From contig NZ_QRBF01000007.1 in NCBI RefSeq assembly GCF_003363265.1, positions 124,001 to 188,000 on the forward strand: a stretch of DNA of 64,000 nt, read 5' to 3'. Positions 26,501 through 34,865 of the stretch are shown piece after piece. The position numbers were made by a program, and so were the translations under genes. Numbering within the stretch: position 1 is the stretch's first letter; each line of letters starts with the position of its first letter. The notes under the pieces were generated by a model, which was not told the origin of the DNA, ran no database searches, and saw only the letters and a list, made by a program, of their open reading frames with translations. Source of the DNA: Dyella psychrodurans (GTDB lineage Bacteria; Pseudomonadota; Gammaproteobacteria; Xanthomonadales; Rhodanobacteraceae).

Positions 26501-26750
26501 GACGACGCTGGTCGCCATGGGCGCCGCGCTGCCCTTGGCCGTTGGCTTCGGCATCGGCGAAGAAATGCGCCAGCCGCTGGGTATCGCCATTCTGGGCGGC
26601 CTGTTCGTGTCGCAATTGCTGACACTGCTCAGCACACCGGCCATTTATCTGTGGCAGCACGACCGGCGTGAACGCAAGGCAGTACGCAAGGCGCGCCGCG
26701 CGGAGAAATTGCGCCTGCGAAAACTGGGTAAAGTGGCCCCTGCAACCTGA
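23580..26750 (+). CDS. RND multidrug efflux permease, MdtB/MdtC type (copy 2)
   Basis: A 1056-residue paralog of the preceding permease. It starts IFEPIIRRPVATSLLAIGLVIAG, keeps the VVDDAIVVIENIFRHMEKG relay motif in TM4, FGKNTMVLLMREFSVTLIAT, and the GIVKKNAILMVDFAL / RFRPITMTTLVAMG block, and ends in a Lys/Arg-rich tail. Most differences lie in the porter loops (for example around KYDFDLASTGGQPLQEPT). Together the pair could form an MdtBC-like hetero-trimer that must borrow a fusion protein from elsewhere. The ATG at 23580 has GGAGG 6 bases upstream. Confidence 0.9.
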   Translation: MNIFEPIIRRPVATSLLAIGLVIAGFCAYLVLGLAAFPSLQFPAITVQALVPGADAQTVAATVTAPLERQLGRIPGIQQMTSDANPGGTQIQILFDLSRNADQVARDVQQAINAALPDLPAVMALSPPQYFKADTTQIPVLLLTMTSTSMPPDKLYDLADTLMRPAISQITGVAQAQLIGGAPHAIRVSLNNGALTAKGLTANDVANALRAANVMSPQGILSDGVTQMTVTASDGLETAQDFATLVIANQKGVPVRLSDVATVTNGQQDAYQAAWFNNQHAAVMQVMKRPEANAVQLVQTIRDTLPRLQAMVPADVKITPIFDLTAGTKSALHEVEVALLLSIVMVAVVMLVFLRRVRPMVIAMFSVPLSLAGAFVLMYALGFTLNMLSLIALVLCIGFVVDDAIVVIENIFRHMEKGSDPLNASMIGVREIGFTVISITLSLVAVFAPMVFGKNTMVLLMREFSVTLIATIVISAIVSLTLTPALCGRYLTREAPGQYKPGKFESAIERFDRTLLRIYESGLNWAMRHRRIMRWQPLILLFLTVALAMAVAKTAGGSLMPSSDIGLVEVDLVADPNISPDLLAQRTKAVEATMLADPAVSDVTSFLGGNNTNGAVSNEATYFIDLKPRGTGPGERPEPAEKVVARLNERYKSLTDVTIAITSLDLFNGTTSTKAKGKYDFDLASTGGQPLQEPTLRLAQVMRKMKPFHDVSTSFDSIGKQQLLEVDRNAASRMQVGMGQIDQALANGFGQTPVSVIYSDINQYQVILSADNANSVSPETLLNLYVRNNQNRMVPLSAIAHIKPYIEPIDIQHYNQLESGTIHYNLADGITQADGLKLVDQAMFAAQLPPGVMKKFTGDNQKMVEAATNAGIIFIAVILAMYIVLGMLYESLIHPLTILSTLPAAGMGAFLAMLITHTQLSTMSVIAVLMLIGIVKKNAILMVDFALVAERDDHLSPPEAIREAALVRFRPITMTTLVAMGAALPLAVGFGIGEEMRQPLGIAILGGLFVSQLLTLLSTPAIYLWQHDRRERKAVRKARRAEKLRLRKLGKVAPAT

Positions 26751-26824
26751 TGCCGATCCTGGCTGTCGCAAGCCATTCCTGAATGTGTGAAACTCGCGCG
26801 GGGTTGGATAACAGGGGCACGGAC

Positions 26825-27118
26825 ATGCAGTTTCTGCAACTGGAAGATTTCGCGGGTCGACTCAACCAAACGTTCGTCGTCGACGTGGATCAGGGGCGCA
26901 CACCCTTCGTGCTGGTGGAAGCCACGCCGTTGCCGTTCCGGCCCATGCACGGCATGGTCCGTGCTCCGTTTTCGCTGGTCTTCCACAACACCTCGCCGGT
27001 GCTGTTTCCGCAGCGCATTTATCAGATGGCCAACCCGGACATGGGCCAGTTCGGCATTTTCCTGGTGCCTATCGGACGCAACCAGGACGGTTTCCTTTAT
27101 CAGGCCGTGTTCAACTGA
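26825..27118 (+). CDS. DUF6916 family protein
   Basis: A 97-residue cytoplasmic protein of all-beta appearance: MQFLQLEDFAGRLNQTFVVD, FVLVEATPLPF, APFSLVFHNTSPVLFPQRIYQM and GQFGIFLVPIGRNQDGFLYQAVFN. This pattern is that of the DUF6916 family, which from memory is often found beside phage-tail-collar (MdpB-like) proteins, as here. Function unknown. The ATG at 26825 follows GGGGCAC. Its last 19 bases overlap the 3' end of the convergent GNAT gene. Confidence 0.75.
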   Translation: MQFLQLEDFAGRLNQTFVVDVDQGRTPFVLVEATPLPFRPMHGMVRAPFSLVFHNTSPVLFPQRIYQMANPDMGQFGIFLVPIGRNQDGFLYQAVFN

Positions 27119-27666
27119 GCCACGTTGTTCCATCGCATGGCGATATAAGGCGCTTCACGCGAGGTTTCGGCGAATCCATGTCGTGCGTAAAGGCGCTGTG
27201 CACCTACGTTGCGCTCGTCCACATGCAAGCCGATAGCCGCTGCGTCATGTTGTCGTACTAGCGATTGAGTCCAATCCAGCAGCAGACTGCCGACGCCACG
27301 ACTGCGCCATGCCGGGTCGAGCGTGATGTCGACGATGTGATAACACGGCGGTTCGCGCAGCAGATAGTATCGGCCGATCGCCTGCTGGTGGCGCTCGATC
27401 ACCCAGAAGTCCGCGTCGGCGTAGCTGTTGACGTAATGCATGTGTTGCAAGGCGAACTGGTCATCCAGAAACGTCTGCTTGAACGCCTCGGGCCAATCTG
27501 CGAGCGACAATTCCTCACTTCTCAACGCACGATAGAGCCCGCGCAGGTAAGGCAGGTCATCCGTCCTTGCTGCTCGCAACTGAATACTCCGGGCCCGCAT
27601 CGGCTCGCTTATACCGATCGCGGGTGACGCCGGAGGAAATCCAGGAAGCCGCTCGGATGCAAGCAT
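27100..27666 (-). CDS. GNAT family N-acetyltransferase of the tail-collar cluster
   Basis: A 188-residue acetyltransferase. After a non-conserved N-terminal stretch come IQLRAARTDDLPYLRGLYRALRSEEL, FWVIERHQQAIGRYYLL, HIVDITLDPAWRSRGVGSLLLDW (the acetyl-CoA loop RxxGVG), and IGLHVDERNVGAQRLYARHGF. I take the ATG at 27666 because it overlaps the stop of the upstream tail-collar gene (TGATG), showing translational coupling; ATG 27600 (MRARSIQ) is an alternative. It may modify one of the tail-collar proteins or a shared substrate, but that is inference. Confidence 0.82.
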   Translation of the reverse strand: MLASERLPGFPPASPAIGISEPMRARSIQLRAARTDDLPYLRGLYRALRSEELSLADWPEAFKQTFLDDQFALQHMHYVNSYADADFWVIERHQQAIGRYYLLREPPCYHIVDITLDPAWRSRGVGSLLLDWTQSLVRQHDAAAIGLHVDERNVGAQRLYARHGFAETSREAPYIAMRWNNVAQLNTA

Positions 27667-28208
27667 CAGCTGAATGTCGGAGGGACTCCGTTCAAGCAAA
27701 TGCAATAGTTGATCGCCAACGCCGGTTGGCGATTTTCGTGCGGTTGTGGCGCCGCTGTTCCGCCTGGACCGGCCATGTTGGGTGAAAACGTCGTATTGGC
27801 TGGTGTGTTGGACGCCGGGAAAGGATGTGCCTGAAACGGTGGCACCATCGCAACGCCATTCTTAGGCGTGTTAGTGCGTTTGGTCGTATCTTCCTGGTTC
27901 CACAACACAAAACCGTGGCTGTGCGACGGTGTCTGGTTGGACAGCAAGGTGACTTGCGCGGCACCGAATACCTGGCCAAGTACACGCGGGGTCAGTCCCA
28001 CGCCTTGACCTTGGCTGCATGCGGCGCGATCCAACAGGTTCGGAAGTTGAAAATTGCTGGTGCCGTTGCCGCCGTACGTTGTGCCGATCAACGAAAAGAG
28101 CCGGGTATTTTGCTGGATGGCCAGCGTTGCGCCGTTGCATTTCGCCCAGTTGATCGGTGCAAAGTCGAACCCGTAGATCTGGATCTCGCCGATGAAAGAA
28201 TCAGTCAT
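27666..28208 (-). CDS. Phage tail-collar domain protein (MdpB-like), third copy
   Basis: A 180-residue protein. The N-terminal tail-collar domain is MTDSFIGEIQIYGFDFAPINW AKCNGATLAIQQNTRLFSLIG followed by TTYGGNGTSNFQLPNLLDRA. A middle THSH-like part (NQTPSHSHGFVLWNQ) follows, and the end ALAINYCICLNGVPP matches the common C-terminal motif of the other two copies. No signal peptide. Its TGA overlaps the GNAT ATG. GGAG lies upstream of the ATG at 28208. Such proteins resemble trimeric phage fibre tips but occur outside prophages. Confidence 0.88.
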   Translation of the reverse strand: MTDSFIGEIQIYGFDFAPINWAKCNGATLAIQQNTRLFSLIGTTYGGNGTSNFQLPNLLDRAACSQGQGVGLTPRVLGQVFGAAQVTLLSNQTPSHSHGFVLWNQEDTTKRTNTPKNGVAMVPPFQAHPFPASNTPANTTFSPNMAGPGGTAAPQPHENRQPALAINYCICLNGVPPTFS

Positions 28209-28261
28209 GGTTTGCTCCGGAATGACATAGTGGTCTGACGCGCGTCTTGTCCCAGCATGGA

Positions 28262-28804
28262 TCAGCTCTGTGACGGATAAATGCCGACGAGGGAAATGCA
28301 GTAGGACACCGTCAAAGTCGGCATGGTGTTGTCGTGCGGGAGGTTGGCGTTTGGTGACGCCGGGGCTGAGGCGACAGTACTGGATTGCAGCGCAAGCTGG
28401 GTCGCGCCAGTCAAATCCGTGGCATACATCGTGTCGGTGTTGGTCAATGCACCGGGCATGACGGTGTTGCCGGGTGTGCCGCTGCTGGCAGCATTGGTGG
28501 TGGCGTACACCGGGTGCGTATGAGCCGGTATCTGCGTAGTGTTTAACGTGACGGTTTCGTCGCCGCCAATTTGACCGATGACGTACAACGGGCGCCCGCC
28601 CCCCCGCCCCTGGTGCATCGGTACCCGGCCACTCAAATTGGGTATCGCAAAGGTGGTGATGCCATCGCCTCCAAAATTGGTGCCCAACAAGTTGTAGAGC
28701 GCGTTGTACTGCGCTATCTGCAGCAACCTGCCATCGCAGAGTGCCCAGTTAACCGGCACCTTGCTGAAACTAAACATCCGGATTTCACCCACGTAAGGAC
28801 TCAT
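28262..28804 (-). CDS. Phage tail-collar domain protein (MdpB-like), second copy
   Basis: A 180-residue paralog: MSPYVGEIRMFSFSKVPVNW, CDGRLLQIAQYNALYNLLGTNFGGDG, FAIPNLSGRVPMHQGRG, then ITLNT-like QIPAHTHPVYATTNAA and the terminal TLTVSYCISLVGIYPSQS. I place the start at 28804 because GGGAG is correctly spaced to it, while the ATG at 28813 abuts the ribosome site. It is separated by 53 bases from the third copy. The HTHP segment and YCI..GIYP ending are shared features of the family. Confidence 0.88.
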   Translation of the reverse strand: MSPYVGEIRMFSFSKVPVNWALCDGRLLQIAQYNALYNLLGTNFGGDGITTFAIPNLSGRVPMHQGRGGGRPLYVIGQIGGDETVTLNTTQIPAHTHPVYATTNAASSGTPGNTVMPGALTNTDTMYATDLTGATQLALQSSTVASAPASPNANLPHDNTMPTLTVSYCISLVGIYPSQS

Positions 28805-28848
28805 GATCACCATCTCCCGATGGAAACGATCTGATGAAGGAATCGCAT

Positions 28849-29355
28849 TTAACTGCGCGAGGGATAGATGCCTGCCGTGCAGATGCAGAACGTCATCACG
28901 CTGAACGGTTGCATGTTCGGATGCGGCTGACTCCCGCCCGCGGGCTGCATCTGCCCGTTGTTGAGCTGGACAGCGCCGCTGCCGGCGTTGGCGTAGATCT
29001 GCCCGCTAGGTGGCGCGCCATAGATGGAGTTGGTTGGATTGCGGCCCGTGCCTTGCGTCGTCGTGGCGTTGATCGCATGCGTGTGCGACGGAAACTGGCT
29101 GGTGTCGATCGTCACCGAATCGACGCCGAAGCCGGTGCCAATGCCATAGCTTTGGCCGTAACCCACTGGCGTGCGCCCACGCAGATCGGGAAGCTGGAAG
29201 TTCGTAGTGCCGTTGCCGCCGTAATACGTGCCCAGCAACGAGAAGAGCGCGGTGCTCTGATTGATCGGCAGGAGCTGCCCGTTGCACATCGCAAAATTTC
29301 GCGGCGCAAAGTTGCCGCTGAAGAGCATGATCTGCCCCATGAATTGTTCAGACAT
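28849..29355 (-). CDS. Phage tail-collar domain protein (MdpB-like), first copy
   Basis: A 168-residue paralog and first gene of the minus-strand set: MSEQFMGQIMLFSGNFAPRN, CNGQLLPINQSTALFSLLGTYYGGNG, FQLPDLRGRTPVGYGQ, SQFPSHTHAINATT and FSVMTFCICTAGIYPSRS at the end. The start is the ATG at 29355, preceded by AGGGGATC; a longer frame to 29403 lacks support. It is divergent from the giant autotransporter gene, sharing a 209-base control region. Confidence 0.88.
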   Translation of the reverse strand: MSEQFMGQIMLFSGNFAPRNFAMCNGQLLPINQSTALFSLLGTYYGGNGTTNFQLPDLRGRTPVGYGQSYGIGTGFGVDSVTIDTSQFPSHTHAINATTTQGTGRNPTNSIYGAPPSGQIYANAGSGAVQLNNGQMQPAGGSQPHPNMQPFSVMTFCICTAGIYPSRS

Positions 29356-29564
29356 CGTCGGATCCCCTGTGGTCGAACCCATGACTGTCACATAGACAAC
29401 CATATAGACGTCTTCACGCGACCTTCACACCGCGCGCCGTTGGGACATCAACGGACGTGATGCGTTAGTGATAGAGTCGCGCCAGCAAACTGAGTTGCAG
29501 TTAACGTTTATCGCGCGACGCGCGGCGAATGTAAAGTGCCGCGGCGAAGTCAGGGGACAAGGGG

Positions 29565-32500
29565 ATGATGATTCGTCTGTGCAAGGCGACGCTTATGCGT
29601 CCGCACGAGGCTGCGCGCCGTCGTGCGTTCTTGTTGCGTAGCTTGTTGATGTTCGTGCTGTTGATTTGCGCGAATCTGATTCCCGCTGTCGCGCGTGCGA
29701 ACGAATGTCCCAACATGTCGATCACCGCGCCATCGAATCAAACGTACACGTTTGCCGTGCCTGCCTGTTCTCCCACCGGCGCTAATGCGCCGGGCACTCC
29801 CGGCATCGCAACACAGCCATCGCACGGCTCGGCTACCGTCAGCGCGAACGACGCGGATATCAGCTACACCAACAATGGCGATGGCGCGACGTCCGACTCT
29901 TTCGCGTGGTACGACGACAAAGGCGAGGCGATCACCGTCGCCGTCACCATCGGCGCGGTAACGCCCGTGACCATCAGCCCCACGACGGCACCCGCCGGTA
30001 CGCTCGGTCAAGCTTACTCACTGCAGTTCACTGCATCGGGCGGCGTCGGCGGGCCGTACACGTATGTCATCAGTTCGGGCGTTCTGCCGGCCGGCGTGAG
30101 CGACAACTCGTCCGGGCTCATTTCAGGTACGCCGACCGAGAGCGGTAGTTTCACCTTCACCGAAACCGCAACCGACTCGGCGAACAATGTCGGTCAACAA
30201 ACCGTCACATTGGTCATCAACGGCGGCACGATCAGTGTTACGCCTTCCAGCTTGCCGAACGCCACGGCATACGCGGCCTACAGCGTGACGCTTGCTGCCA
30301 GCGGCGGCACCGCGCCATACACCTATGCGCAAGTCCCCGGAACCGCACCGCCCAGCGGCATCACGATCGGCTCGAACGGAACGATATCCGGTACCGCCAC
30401 CGTGCTGGGAACCACTACCTTTTCGGTGGAAGTGACCGATTCCGCCAGCATCTCGACGCAGCTCAGTTATTCGCTGCAGGTCGTAGCGCCGACGATCACC
30501 CTATCGTCGCCCACACTGCCAATCGGCGAGCAAAACGCAACGTATCCTTCGCAAACGCTGACCGCCAGCGGCGGAACATCGCCGTATACCTTTGCGATTA
30601 CCTCCGGCTCGTTGCCAGGTGGCATGACGCTATCGAGCAGCGGCGTGCTGAGCGGCACGCCTACCAGCAGCGGCACGTTCTCGTTTAGCGTCACCGCCAC
30701 GGATGCGCACGGTTTTACTTCCAGCGCAGCGAACTACAGCATCACGATCGATCCGCCATTGAGCTGGGCACCAAGCAACCCGCCCGGCGGCACGGTCGGC
30801 CTGTCATACAGCACCACATTGGCAACGGCGAGCGGCGGCGGCACGCCATATACGTATAGCGTCAGCAGCGGTTCGTTGCCGGCGGGCTTGTCGTTGAACA
30901 GTGCGAGCGGCGCGATCACAGGTACGCCCACCGCCGGCGGCACGTTCAGTGTCGCATTCAAGGTGACCGATGCGAATGGTGCGTCGATTACCTCAAGCAC
31001 CTTCTCGATGACAATCGCCGCGCCAACGTTGTCGACATCGCCGGCAACGTTGCCGAATGCCACGCAGAACGCCGCCTATAGTCAAACCATGACCACCAGC
31101 GGCGGCACTGCGCCGTATACCTACGCAGTGTCGAGCGGCGCGCTGCCGACGGGAATGACGCTGTCGTCGAATGGCGTGCTGAGCGGCACGCCCACCGTCT
31201 ATGGCGCGTTCCCCTTTACGGTAACCGTTGTCGACAGCAGTACCGGCACGGGACCTTACACTCGGCAAATCAATTACACGCTCACCGTGATTTCCGCGTC
31301 GCCGGTGATCACTACCGCCACCCTTCCGGCAGGCACGGACGGAACGGCTTACAACCAGACCATCGCCGCCAGCGGAGGAACGCCGCCGTATTCGTTTAGC
31401 TTGAGCGCGGGTAGCTTGCCGCCTGGCATGACGCTCAGCAGCGGTGGTGTGCTGTCGGGTACGCCAACGGCGGGCGGTACGTTGTATGCATTCACCGTCC
31501 TGGTGACGGATGCTGCTACGAAAACCGGTACGCAGGCTTATAACCTCACCATCAACGCCGCAACGGTCACGCTTTCTCCAACATCGCTACCGCCGATGCA
31601 AGATGGCGTGGCCTTCAGCCAGACGTTTAGTGCGTCAGGCGGAAACAGTCCTTACACGTACTCGGTGTCATCCGGCAGTCTGCCGGCCGGCCTCAGCTTG
31701 AATGCAAGCACCGGCACGTTGTCGGGTACGCCCACTTATTCGGGCTCCTACAATTTCACCATCCAGGCGAGAGACAGCAGTACCGGCACCGGACCGTATA
31801 CCGCCACGCAGACGTATTCCGGCACGGTCGCCGCTCCCGTCATCACCGTGTCGCCGTCCGTCACGCCGAATGCTGCTTACGGCCAGGCGTATACGCAGAC
31901 CTTTACGGCGAGCGGCGGCACCGCACCGTATACCTACACCTTGTCGGGCGGCCCGCTGCCCGCCGGATTGAGTTTCAACGCCGCCACGGCAACGCTGTCA
32001 GGCGTGCCGATTCAGTCGGGTACCTTTACCTTCACCATCAACGCGCAGGATCACAGCACGGGCGGCACCTTCACCGGCTCGAAAACGTACACGCTCAACG
32101 TCAGCACGGCGGTGATCACGTTCACGCCCAGCACGTTGCCTTCGGGATCGATCGGAACGGCCTACAACAGTACGACCTTTACCGCCAGCGGCGGCATCGC
32201 GCCTTATCACTATGCGATCAGTTCCGGCAGTTTGCCTGCAGGATTGACGCTGAGTTCGTCCGGCACGCTCAGCGGCACGCCAACCTCGGCGGGCACGTTC
32301 AACTTCTCCGTACAGGCCACCGATGCAAACAATGCAAGTGGCACGCAACCGTACAGCATCTCGGTGGCAGCGCCGACACTCACGCTCAGCCCGTCGACGT
32401 TGCCTTCCACCACGGCAGAAACGGCGTACAGCCAAAGCTTCACCACGACCGGGGGCACGCAACCGTATACGTATACGTTGGCGAGTGGTTCGCTTCCACC

Positions 32501-34865
32501 AGGACTCAGTTTGAGCACGTCCGGCGTGTTGAGCGGCACGCCGACGGCGGCGGGTTCGTACACCTTCGTCGTGCGCAGCACGGACAGCAGTACCGGCACC
32601 GGTGCGCCGTTCTTCACCACCGTGTCGTACACGCTGCAGATCAACGCACCGAGCGTCACCATCAGCCCGACGACGTTGCCGAATCTGCAAGTGTCTGCGG
32701 CGTACAGTCAGCAGCTCACCGCGAGCGGCGGCAATGGCAGTTACAGTTTCAGCATCAGCGCGGGTGCCCTGCCACCCGGCTTGACCTTGAGTACGTCGGG
32801 CTTGCTATCGGGCACGCCCACGACGGCGGGCAATTACAGTTTTAGCGTGTCGGCCAAGGACAGCCTGAACTTCTCGGGCACGCAGGCTTATACGGTCAGC
32901 GCGCAACAGCCCAAGCCCATCGCACGCAACGACACATCGAGCACGCCGGCGAATCAGGCGGTAACGATCAATGTCACCTCGGTGGATACGGGTCCGATCA
33001 CCAGCATCGCGATTTCTTCGTCGCCATCGCACGGCAGTGCGACGGTAAGCGGCATGGCGATCGTCTACACGCCGACGCACGATTTCTACGGCACCGATAC
33101 GTTGACCTATACCGCGACCGGTCCGGGCGGTACGTCCGCGCCGGCGACGGTCACGATCACGGTGACGCCGCTTGCCGTGCCCACGGTCACCGCGCAAAGC
33201 GCGACGGTACTGGCAGGCAACGCGGTGAGCATCAATCCCACGGCGGGTGCTACCGGCGGACCGTTTACGGCCATCGCCATCGTCAAGGCGCCATCGTCCG
33301 GCACGGCTACCGTGGCGGGCAGTGCGATCAACTACAGCGCCGATCCGAGCGGCTCGGGGCAAGTCACGTTCACGTACACGCTGGCCAATGCATTCGGCGT
33401 TTCGCTGCCTGCGACGGCGACGATCACGGTCGATCCGAGGCCTGGCATCGCTTCGCAAAACATTTCATCCATCGCCGGTCGATCGGTGCAAGTCAACCTC
33501 ACCCAGGGTGCGACGGGCGGACCGTTCACGGCGGCAACGCTGGTATCGCTGTCGCCGGCTTCGGCAGGCACGGCGCAGATCGTGCAAAGCGCGGGCGGCT
33601 ACCAGCTCGACTTCACGGCGGCGCCGACATTCAGCGGGGCTGCGGTGGTGACCTTTACGCTGAGCAATGCGTATGCGACGTCGGCGCCCGCGACCATCAC
33701 CATCGCCGTGACCGCGCGGCCCGATCCGTCGAAGGACGCCGAAGTGCTCGGTGTGCTCGGCGCGCAAGCCGACGCGACGAGGGAGTTCGCGCAAGGCCAG
33801 ATCGAGAACTTCCAGCAACGCCTGGAAAACCTGCATGGCGGCGGTGGCGGCAGCAACGGCGGCTTCCAGAACAACCTGACCTTCATGTCCGGCGACAGCA
33901 ACAACGCCGGGCTCGCACCGCAGTGGCCCTACAACAACACGCAGAACATGGCGGGCAATCTCAACCGCCGCTATCTGGTGGATCCGCAGACGCCGGCCAA
34001 CCCGACGACCACATCGTCCTCGCCGTTGCCGGACGGTTTCGTGCTGTGGACCGGTGGCGCGGTGAATTTCGGATCGCGCGATACCACGGCCACGGCCAGC
34101 GGTTTCGACTTCACCACCGCAGGGATCAGCGTGGGCGTCGATCGGCGCATATCCTCGTCGTTTGCGATGGGCGTGGGCGTCGGTTACGGCCATGACGATA
34201 CGGATGTCGGCCACAACGGCAGCCGCAGTACGGCCGACAGCTACAACGTCGCGTGGTACGGCAGCTTCAGCCCGAGCGAATCGACCTTTATCGACGGGCT
34301 TGTCAGCTATCAATGGCTGTCGTTCGATGCACGCCGCTATGTCACCGCCGACGGCAACATGGTGAACGGCAGCCGCGACGGTCACCAGGTATTCGCATCG
34401 CTTGCCGCCGGTTACGAATATCGCAACGAACAATGGCTGATATCGCCGTACGGTCGCATCGACGACGCATCCGCACGGCTGGATCGGTACACCGAACAGG
34501 GCGACGCGATCTACGCATTGAGCTACGGCAACGAAATGGTCAGGACGACGACTGCCAGCCTCGGCGTGCGCATGAATTACCTGATCAAGGAAGATTACGG
34601 CACGGTGATGCCGCAACTGCGCCTGGAGTACGGACACGATTTCCAGGGTTCCAGCCAGGCAACGATGACGTATGCCGATTTGCTGGCAGGCCCCATCTAT
34701 CGCGCGCAGGTCGATCCGCTCACCCAGAACCACTTCACGATCGGCATCGGCGTGAACTGGCAGCTCGTCCATCAATGGCTGCTGCGGCTGGAGTATCAGA
34801 ACCAGATCAACGCGGGCGATCAGAACGATCAGTCGGTCCTGATCAACGTGCAGAAGAAGTTCTAG
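29565..34865 (+). CDS. Giant Ig-like repeat autotransporter (type V secretion adhesin)
   Basis: 1766 residues. A long signal region (RRRAFLLRSLLMFVLLICANLIPAVARA) precedes a Cys-containing first module. About 11 tandem Ig-like (He_PIG-type) repeats of 86-92 residues fill roughly residues 130-1115; each has TLP..Y.QT.TASGG..PYTY, SSGSLP.GL.L, and GVLSGTPT..GTF. Three related modules (FYGTDTLTYTATGPGG type) follow, to about 1390. A Gly-rich linker, then a beta-barrel from about residue 1490 (GFVLWTGGAVNFGSRD) ends in INVQKKF, a terminal Phe for BAM recognition. It is most likely a surface adhesin. The ATG at 29565 has CAGGGG 8 bases upstream. The last 91 bases recur at 37692-37782. Confidence 0.9.
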   Translation: MMIRLCKATLMRPHEAARRRAFLLRSLLMFVLLICANLIPAVARANECPNMSITAPSNQTYTFAVPACSPTGANAPGTPGIATQPSHGSATVSANDADISYTNNGDGATSDSFAWYDDKGEAITVAVTIGAVTPVTISPTTAPAGTLGQAYSLQFTASGGVGGPYTYVISSGVLPAGVSDNSSGLISGTPTESGSFTFTETATDSANNVGQQTVTLVINGGTISVTPSSLPNATAYAAYSVTLAASGGTAPYTYAQVPGTAPPSGITIGSNGTISGTATVLGTTTFSVEVTDSASISTQLSYSLQVVAPTITLSSPTLPIGEQNATYPSQTLTASGGTSPYTFAITSGSLPGGMTLSSSGVLSGTPTSSGTFSFSVTATDAHGFTSSAANYSITIDPPLSWAPSNPPGGTVGLSYSTTLATASGGGTPYTYSVSSGSLPAGLSLNSASGAITGTPTAGGTFSVAFKVTDANGASITSSTFSMTIAAPTLSTSPATLPNATQNAAYSQTMTTSGGTAPYTYAVSSGALPTGMTLSSNGVLSGTPTVYGAFPFTVTVVDSSTGTGPYTRQINYTLTVISASPVITTATLPAGTDGTAYNQTIAASGGTPPYSFSLSAGSLPPGMTLSSGGVLSGTPTAGGTLYAFTVLVTDAATKTGTQAYNLTINAATVTLSPTSLPPMQDGVAFSQTFSASGGNSPYTYSVSSGSLPAGLSLNASTGTLSGTPTYSGSYNFTIQARDSSTGTGPYTATQTYSGTVAAPVITVSPSVTPNAAYGQAYTQTFTASGGTAPYTYTLSGGPLPAGLSFNAATATLSGVPIQSGTFTFTINAQDHSTGGTFTGSKTYTLNVSTAVITFTPSTLPSGSIGTAYNSTTFTASGGIAPYHYAISSGSLPAGLTLSSSGTLSGTPTSAGTFNFSVQATDANNASGTQPYSISVAAPTLTLSPSTLPSTTAETAYSQSFTTTGGTQPYTYTLASGSLPPGLSLSTSGVLSGTPTAAGSYTFVVRSTDSSTGTGAPFFTTVSYTLQINAPSVTISPTTLPNLQVSAAYSQQLTASGGNGSYSFSISAGALPPGLTLSTSGLLSGTPTTAGNYSFSVSAKDSLNFSGTQAYTVSAQQPKPIARNDTSSTPANQAVTINVTSVDTGPITSIAISSSPSHGSATVSGMAIVYTPTHDFYGTDTLTYTATGPGGTSAPATVTITVTPLAVPTVTAQSATVLAGNAVSINPTAGATGGPFTAIAIVKAPSSGTATVAGSAINYSADPSGSGQVTFTYTLANAFGVSLPATATITVDPRPGIASQNISSIAGRSVQVNLTQGATGGPFTAATLVSLSPASAGTAQIVQSAGGYQLDFTAAPTFSGAAVVTFTLSNAYATSAPATITIAVTARPDPSKDAEVLGVLGAQADATREFAQGQIENFQQRLENLHGGGGGSNGGFQNNLTFMSGDSNNAGLAPQWPYNNTQNMAGNLNRRYLVDPQTPANPTTTSSSPLPDGFVLWTGGAVNFGSRDTTATASGFDFTTAGISVGVDRRISSSFAMGVGVGYGHDDTDVGHNGSRSTADSYNVAWYGSFSPSESTFIDGLVSYQWLSFDARRYVTADGNMVNGSRDGHQVFASLAAGYEYRNEQWLISPYGRIDDASARLDRYTEQGDAIYALSYGNEMVRTTTASLGVRMNYLIKEDYGTVMPQLRLEYGHDFQGSSQATMTYADLLAGPIYRAQVDPLTQNHFTIGIGVNWQLVHQWLLRLEYQNQINAGDQNDQSVLINVQKKF

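Follow-up and report, generated by a model that had tools for sequence, protein, structure and literature searches.

A conserved bacterial module of three phage-tail-collar-like proteins, a GNAT acetyltransferase and DUF6916, probably acting at the cell surface

Introduction

Bacterial genes annotated as 'tail fiber protein' are easily mistaken for phage debris. A stretch of 64,000 nucleotides from Dyella psychrodurans (contig NZ_QRBF01000007.1, positions 124,001 to 188,000; hereafter, at its full length, the window) raises the question of what else such genes might be: it holds three paralogous phage-tail-collar genes (collar1, collar2 and collar3) alongside a GNAT acetyltransferase gene and a facing DUF6916 gene, from which a gene for a giant immunoglobulin (Ig)-like adhesin diverges. 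An earlier note, made from the sequence alone, suggested that the set might be cell-borne fibre tips modified by acetylation and working with, or displayed by, the adhesin. Here we report that the collars, GNAT and DUF6916 are a conserved module maintained by selection, and not prophage debris. It points to a device found widely among bacteria, with a probable role at the cell surface.

A conserved set of genes

A scan of species genomes with collar1 returned 44 loci (set A). On maps drawn from open reading frames (ORFs) and hidden Markov models (HMMs), 23 of them show a run of three collars followed by GNAT and then by a convergent DUF6916. The ordered cassette occurs in Xanthomonadales, Rhizobiales, Sphingomonadales, Burkholderiales and other groups. 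Gene calls were made with our own ORF scans and with HMMs trained on set A, and the set A counts are therefore not independent. To avoid circularity we started from DUF6916, which is present in 36 of 299 genomes of the phylum, at 40 places; leaving aside the window's own, these places were covered by 37 loci (set B). Collars are found in 34 of the 37 and GNAT in 32 (our own DUF6916 model recovers 31 of the 37 that Pfam found, and the sets may have some species in common). As a control we took 20 arbitrary stretches of 18 kb from 15 sampled genomes, placed at hand-chosen round coordinates rather than drawn at random; they contain no collar, no DUF6916, no adhesin and one GNAT.

The association extends to whole genomes. 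Collars scoring at least 100 bits occur in 33 of the 36 genomes with DUF6916 and in 14 of the 263 without it (Fisher p ~2e-29, which is only a guide because the genomes are related). This table takes in 47 collar genomes; counting all 67 gives 35 genomes with both, 1 with DUF6916 only, 32 with collars only and 231 with neither. Among 117 genomes of the window's own family (thresholds E 1e-3 for DUF6916 and E 1e-20 for collars) 57 have both, 58 have neither, one has collars only and one has DUF6916 only, this last being a partial match below the cut-off. Half of the genomes sampled from this family thus have the module, which, patchy as it is, goes as one, since 57 genomes hold both out of 58 with DUF6916 and 58 with collars. 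Twenty stretches from 19 of the 58 collar genomes, mostly of different genera, were read: GNAT is present in all 20 and DUF6916 in 19. On the basis of the control stretches and the genome-wide co-occurrence we reject the hypothesis that chance alone explains the neighbourhood. The earlier note had staked its proposal on a constant association of collars, GNAT and DUF6916, and that test was run and passed.

The arrangement of the genes also recurs. GNAT adjoins DUF6916 in 48 loci; the pair is convergent in 37, where the two genes overlap in 18 cases, 12 of them by exactly 8 bases (L034, L035, L038, L039, L042, L043, L044, L050, L051, L061, L081 and L083). The common ending of DUF6916, phenylalanine-asparagine-stop, would supply the GNAT stop codon on the opposite strand. 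Triplets of collars were seen in Pseudomonadota, Acidobacteriota, Bacteroidota and Deinococcota. Plasmids and megaplasmids carry them as well: collars occur in 63 of 72,556 plasmid records and, among the matches listed, at three places in 24 of 25.

Finally, 18 comparisons of collars from closely related species gave dN below dS (dN/dS about 0.07-0.4; for example 0.046 against 0.521 and, at the weakest, 0.060 against 0.152), the mark of purifying selection. The worry that these might be dead genes is thereby answered in part, the collars being kept by selection.

The locus in Dyella psychrodurans

The three collars lie in a row on the minus strand and match PF07484 (gathering score 24) at 92.6, 88.2 and 83.7 bits. 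Collar1 (28849..29355) has 168 residues from the conserved start MSEQFMGQI, with an open frame that extends to 29403; collar2 (28262..28804) has 180 from the conserved start MSPYVGEI, with another in-frame start at 28813; collar3 (27666..28208) also has 180. The GNAT gene (27100..27666, minus strand; 188 residues, PF00583 at 54 bits) begins inside the collar3 stop, the stop codon lying at 27668-27666 and the GNAT start at 27666-27664, which together read TGATG. DUF6916 (26825..27118, plus strand; 97 residues, PF21880 at 98 bits), a near-constant neighbour of collars, converges on GNAT with a tail-to-tail overlap of 19 bases. All five matches are above the Pfam cut-off.

A divergent intergenic region (29356..29564) separates collar1 from the adhesin gene (29565..34865, plus strand), which encodes 1766 residues of Ig repeats (He_PIG and Big_9) and an autotransporter beta-domain. 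Pfam finds 11 He_PIG stretches (435.6 bits) and PF03797 (173.9 bits), and NCBIfam gives a match to TIGR01414 at 65.8 bits; with its beta-domain and Ig repeats the protein is an autotransporter adhesin. The set is flanked by an AcrB-type pump gene on one side and a MASE1 protein gene on the other. A simple scan for sigma-70-like promoters, which is uninformative, found none in 26700-29800, the collar1/adhesin intergenic region included.

ORFs, strands and Pfam matches thus bear out the gene set as it had been described: three PF07484 paralogues of 168, 180 and 180 residues, the third joined to GNAT by TGATG, with DUF6916 facing them and a giant Ig-like adhesin diverging. The collar motifs given at the time are also present, except that the third collar ends in GVPP and not in GIYP.

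Relation to phages

The obvious alternative is that the collars are fibres, remnant or surplus, from a prophage, a tailocin or a contractile injection system. Their fold and their PHROG matches are indeed those of tail fibres, and Foldseek ranks a phage neck protein first for DUF6916, albeit weakly (E 0.098). The genome and the neighbourhood speak against it. In the Dyella assembly (16 contigs, 99.95% complete) the only collar matches are these three and DUF6916 matches just once, and profile searches for the contractile sheath (PF04984) and the phage portal (PF04860) gave zero matches in it; the same searches were positive in 3 and 4 of 14 control genomes, respectively. Relatives of collar1 occur in 254 of 50,697 phage records, all below 60% identity and the best among the matches listed at 36.6%; DUF6916 has no match in those 50,697 records. 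The collars' PHROG matches are to tail families of 303-1024 positions, whereas the window's collars consist of the domain alone, from the first residue. Of the five neighbouring ORFs compared with PHROGs only the AcrB-type pump has a match, to a family of unknown function, and the neighbours are constant and non-viral across loci. We therefore regard a prophage or tailocin origin as close to refuted, in keeping with the view of the earlier note that this is no prophage remnant. One candidate for a bacterial relative, C24 of Bizionia (6ov6), was set aside: in the part of its description at hand it is called a temperate phage protein.

Three collar lineages

The number of collar genes per cluster is strongly biased. 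Clusters of one, two and three genes number 29, 6 and 59; none has four or five, and one each has six and nine (L057 and L079, and the edge clusters L060, L085 and L131, were left out). Accordingly, 61 of the 67 multi-collar clusters hold three, six or nine genes. Two of the six pairs again total three collar domains, since in L113 (1995-3674) and L132 (8017-9297) one gene comprises two full collar domains and a third collar gene stands beside it. Within the window's family, exactly three matches are found in 52 of the 58 collar genomes, one match in four, six in one, and four in one, a draft of 770 contigs. Beside the cassettes of two Mesorhizobium loci (L056:13931-18532 and L059:13947-18544) we also observed a second set of three larger collars, of about 623, 278 and 630 residues.

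A tree was built from the 147 collars of 49 of the 56 triplets. L057 (identical to L037), L079 (contig of L041), L085 (truncated), the signal arrays L064, L073 and L076, and L040 (start misread) were left out, here and in the residue counts. The collars of adhesin-type cassettes fall by position into three separate clades of 19, 20 and 20 rows, with support of 96/94 for the first position (collar1), 100/96 for the second (collar2) and 99/99 for the third (collar3). For these cassettes the tree leads us to reject recent tandem duplication: the three collars are old, separate lineages. Phage members of the collar fold are trimers. Taken with the counts of three and the separate old paralogues, this makes an obligate 1:1:1 heterotrimer the simplest reading of the sequences, with collar3 as the proposed third subunit.

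Fold of the collars and of DUF6916

The predicted structure of collar1 (predicted local distance difference test, pLDDT, 81; predicted template modelling score, pTM, 0.54; weaker, at 59-64, in residues 61-80) matches the collar and head of the T4 short tail fibre protein gp12 (1ocy) with a Foldseek E of 2.5e-4. Residues 1-162 of the 168 align to gp12 336-527 (VIA Z 9.8, root-mean-square deviation, rmsd, 4.2, 108 residues aligned). The model thus favours the fibre-tip fold that had been supposed for these proteins. An HxH motif is present in 147 of 147 collars, and the positions invariant in 52 rows include C24, G46-G47, P56, H91, H93 and N147. In gp12 the histidines of this motif hold metal.

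DUF6916 is predicted (AF2) to be a small six-stranded beta barrel, with pLDDT 93.2 and pTM 0.84. Its best structural alignment, which does not settle the matter, is with the N-terminal barrel of MrkH (5kec, YcgR-N type; Z 8.2, rmsd 2.1, 80 aligned), followed by many other barrels. Its sequence search of the PDB returned nothing at E up to 10, and Foldseek nothing under 0.001.

The acetyltransferase and the collar N-terminus

GNAT retains the GNAT motif [QRK]xxGx[GA] in 72 of 74 sequences. Its best NCBIfam match is rimI, at 46.3 bits against a cut-off of 86.4, so that it does not qualify as RimI, although it may still work like it. Lysine acetylation of the collars is made unlikely by the want of a conserved lysine: 37 of the 147 collars, collar1 of the window among them, are lysine-free, and the best lysine column reaches 22 of 49. 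The N-terminus, by contrast, looks near-fixed. Counted back from the C-x-G motif, the start codon lies at 20 residues in 117 collars and at 21 in 27, together 144 of 147, a spacing partly built in, as starts were picked as M or V 19-23 residues before the motif (two of the 147 rows have no called start). Of 145 second residues, 119 are S, A, T or G, 23 are D or E and 3 are P.

In seven loci (L064, L073, L074, L119, L121, L127 and L128) the collars carry Sec-like signals and form clusters of up to nine. All seven are without GNAT or DUF6916, and two still lie beside a giant adhesin; three are from sphingomonads and so not independent. The simple heuristic used flagged 8 of 96 loci (L057 and L079 left out), and with L055, which we judged false by eye, the raw table reads 1 of 8 flagged loci against 73 of 88. 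The near-fixed start, the choice of residue 2, an enzyme nearest to RimI and its absence where signals occur favour N-terminal acylation of the signal-less collars. Acetylation there fits the sequences better than lysine acetylation, the N-terminus being the only amine that all collars share. In four loci where we found no GNAT, the collars are accompanied by a formyltransferase-like gene (L065:11160-12050, L053:11162-12031, L122:7413 and L125:8026), and formyl transfer may have taken the place of acetyl transfer there. The profile used was built from a single protein and Pfam covered L065 alone; the housekeeping enzyme Fmt could also confound the result.

GNAT could instead act on a sugar, the adhesin or a small molecule, with a heterotrimeric surface tip made alongside and a coupling that is merely metabolic. 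Collars without a conserved lysine would agree with this, as would weak GNAT matches to aminoglycoside and amino-sugar N-acetyltransferases, and a PMT_2 glycosyltransferase and sulfotransferases lie near Pseudomonas loci. The TGATG coupling of GNAT to collar3, the missing GNAT where collars have Sec-like signals and a best curated match, below cut-off as it is, to a protein N-terminal enzyme weigh the other way, and we think another target rather unlikely. The missing signals bear on a second alternative, that collars leave the cell only by lysis and serve inside it or as tips freed with dead cells. The window's collars have no signal peptide and 88 of the 96 loci went unflagged; signal-bearing versions nevertheless exist and collars are frequently paired with secreted giant adhesins, and this alternative seems to us quite improbable.

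The giant adhesin

The giant Ig adhesin stands next to the cassette in 16 of the 20 family loci read and in none of the 20 control stretches; within the window's family it does go with the collars, as had been thought. Nineteen of the 44 set A loci share one giant-adhesin cluster with the window. In set B the adhesins are either He_PIG proteins, often with an autotransporter domain, or DUF4347 proteins with Ig/Fn3 repeats. A giant adhesin is also present in 11 of the 20 collar loci without an adjoining DUF6916 match (17 from genomes without DUF6916, 3 from genomes with DUF6916 elsewhere). Of the plasmid-borne sets, that of Phyllobacterium has a giant 'putative Ig domain' protein nearby, and from that of Ruegeria a giant 'choice-of-anchor D' protein diverges. 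The collars may be in contact with the adhesin, or even displayed by it.

A branch with lasso-like clusters

A second group of lineages has the triplet next to genes for AsnS, PqqD, an HprK-like protein and a sulfotransferase, often with an Asp/Asn hydroxylase; in Azospirillum (NZ_CP054615) a lasso B2 gene is annotated as well. Of 15 asnS loci, 12 have short peptides with the motif WxxPx[VILM], which resemble lasso leaders, no more than 700 bases from asnS; their density is 13 per 22 kb near asnS compared with 10 per 232 kb in the rest of the loci and 22 per 360 kb in controls; three of them were run against NCBIfam and matched no model. Collars and lasso-like clusters stand together in L043, L044, L051, L053, L065, L068, L081, L083, L086, L095, L113 and L132, and L157 (8333-8509) has a further such peptide with collars. 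In L070 (11716-13478), L105 and L106 an Asp/Asn beta-hydroxylase and a sulfotransferase lie beside single collars, together with giant DUF4347-type proteins and HlyD/M50 genes. Among the genes of halotolerant strains, passages of PMC10040529 name both the enzymes of a lasso-type set and, in another connection, a tail fibre protein, with no link drawn there.

These enzymes raise the possibility that a peptide-modification pathway uses the collars as its carriers or targets: acyl-, sulfo- and hydroxyl-transferases would decorate the collars or a co-made peptide, the tip would deliver the product, and the adhesin variant would be one branch. The enzyme genes beside triplets and the peptides near asnS are what such a pathway would leave. 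By protein clustering, however, none of these enzyme clusters occurs in 15001-45000 of the window, and one of the enzymes, a hydroxylase, is found in just 1 of the 20 family loci; we consider the pathway unlikely. Some lasso-like loci also carry GNAT and DUF6916, from which it appears that the core pairs with either kind of product, adhesin or lasso-like peptide.

Discussion

We tentatively favour a reading, held at somewhat less than even confidence, in which the set is a bacterial, non-viral fibre-tip module. The three collars would assemble 1:1:1 into a short heterotrimer on the plan of the gp12 collar and receptor-binding head, with no shaft, closed by a metal to which each chain would give one HxH. 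GNAT would acylate the shared free amine at the collar N-termini during synthesis, and DUF6916 may help in assembly or docking. The exported tip would then act at the cell surface with the co-encoded giant Ig autotransporter, as an adhesive or recognition head.

Several observations weigh against this reading. Within the stretch read, the adhesin is found in only 13 of the 37 set B loci, and GNAT in only 6 of the 20 collar loci without an adjoining DUF6916 match. L082, L084 and L108 have DUF6916 with no collar in reach, L108 at a contig end. (The genome of L084, G071, has no collar match at E 1e-8; in that of L082, G051, the collars lie ~46 kb from DUF6916.) In the 29 single-collar clusters a homotrimer would suffice, each having one collar. 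Position labels need 19 changes on the whole tree, not 2 (shuffles need 70), so in certain lineages the collars have changed their order or their identity. The collar model is of a single chain and of middling confidence; residue 2 was counted without a control set, and small second residues are common in bacteria generally; and the signal-less collars have no visible export route.

More broadly, the module might be one version of a general device, an obligate heterotrimeric tip matured by dedicated N-acyl, hydroxyl and sulfo transferases and set on an interchangeable partner, a giant Ig adhesin or a lasso-like peptide product, with which it would make up one surface or released machine. In our estimation this extension is a doubtful one. 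The locus offers a candidate for a naturally heterotrimeric tip. It also places DUF6916 in a setting and ties tip proteins both to adhesins and to enzymes that modify peptides.

Comparison with known systems

Limited literature searches (open-licence papers, no preprints) found no description of the module among the titles and abstract openings listed; open-licence full text yielded no paper on DUF6916 and, for collar and autotransporter together, nothing beyond an E. coli genome paper. 'Tail collar' terms do occur in the Solibacter genome paper (PMC3174227).

The lasso-type cluster of Azospirillum (NZ_CP054615) sets PqqD, AsnB, B2 and tailoring genes beside three collars, GNAT and, on our own reading of the sequence, a DUF6916-like gene; there the collars are linked to it by neighbourhood only, and no such cluster lies near the window's cassette. 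The tail fibre of cyanophage A-1(L) (8kec) is the only sequence relative of the collars in the PDB up to E 0.1 (29 bits; Z 8.8), but the match is a part of a 379-residue phage fibre, unlike the stand-alone collars.

The MAT fibres of Bdellovibrio are likewise bacterium-borne, trimeric, phage-fibre-like and used to recognise surfaces; in the extracts of PMC10769870 on which this comparison by description rests, they have a signal peptide followed by a conserved domain, beta-helices and varied tips. The window's collars, at 168-180 residues, begin at the collar and have no signal, and are not of this kind: they would be three free-standing tips, encoded with GNAT and DUF6916.

The closest likeness in structure is T4 gp12 (1ocy), which shares with the window's collars the collar1 fold match and the HxH pair. 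Unlike gp12, the window's collars have no shaft or baseplate part; they are three different chains, encoded by a bacterium, and stand among no phage genes.

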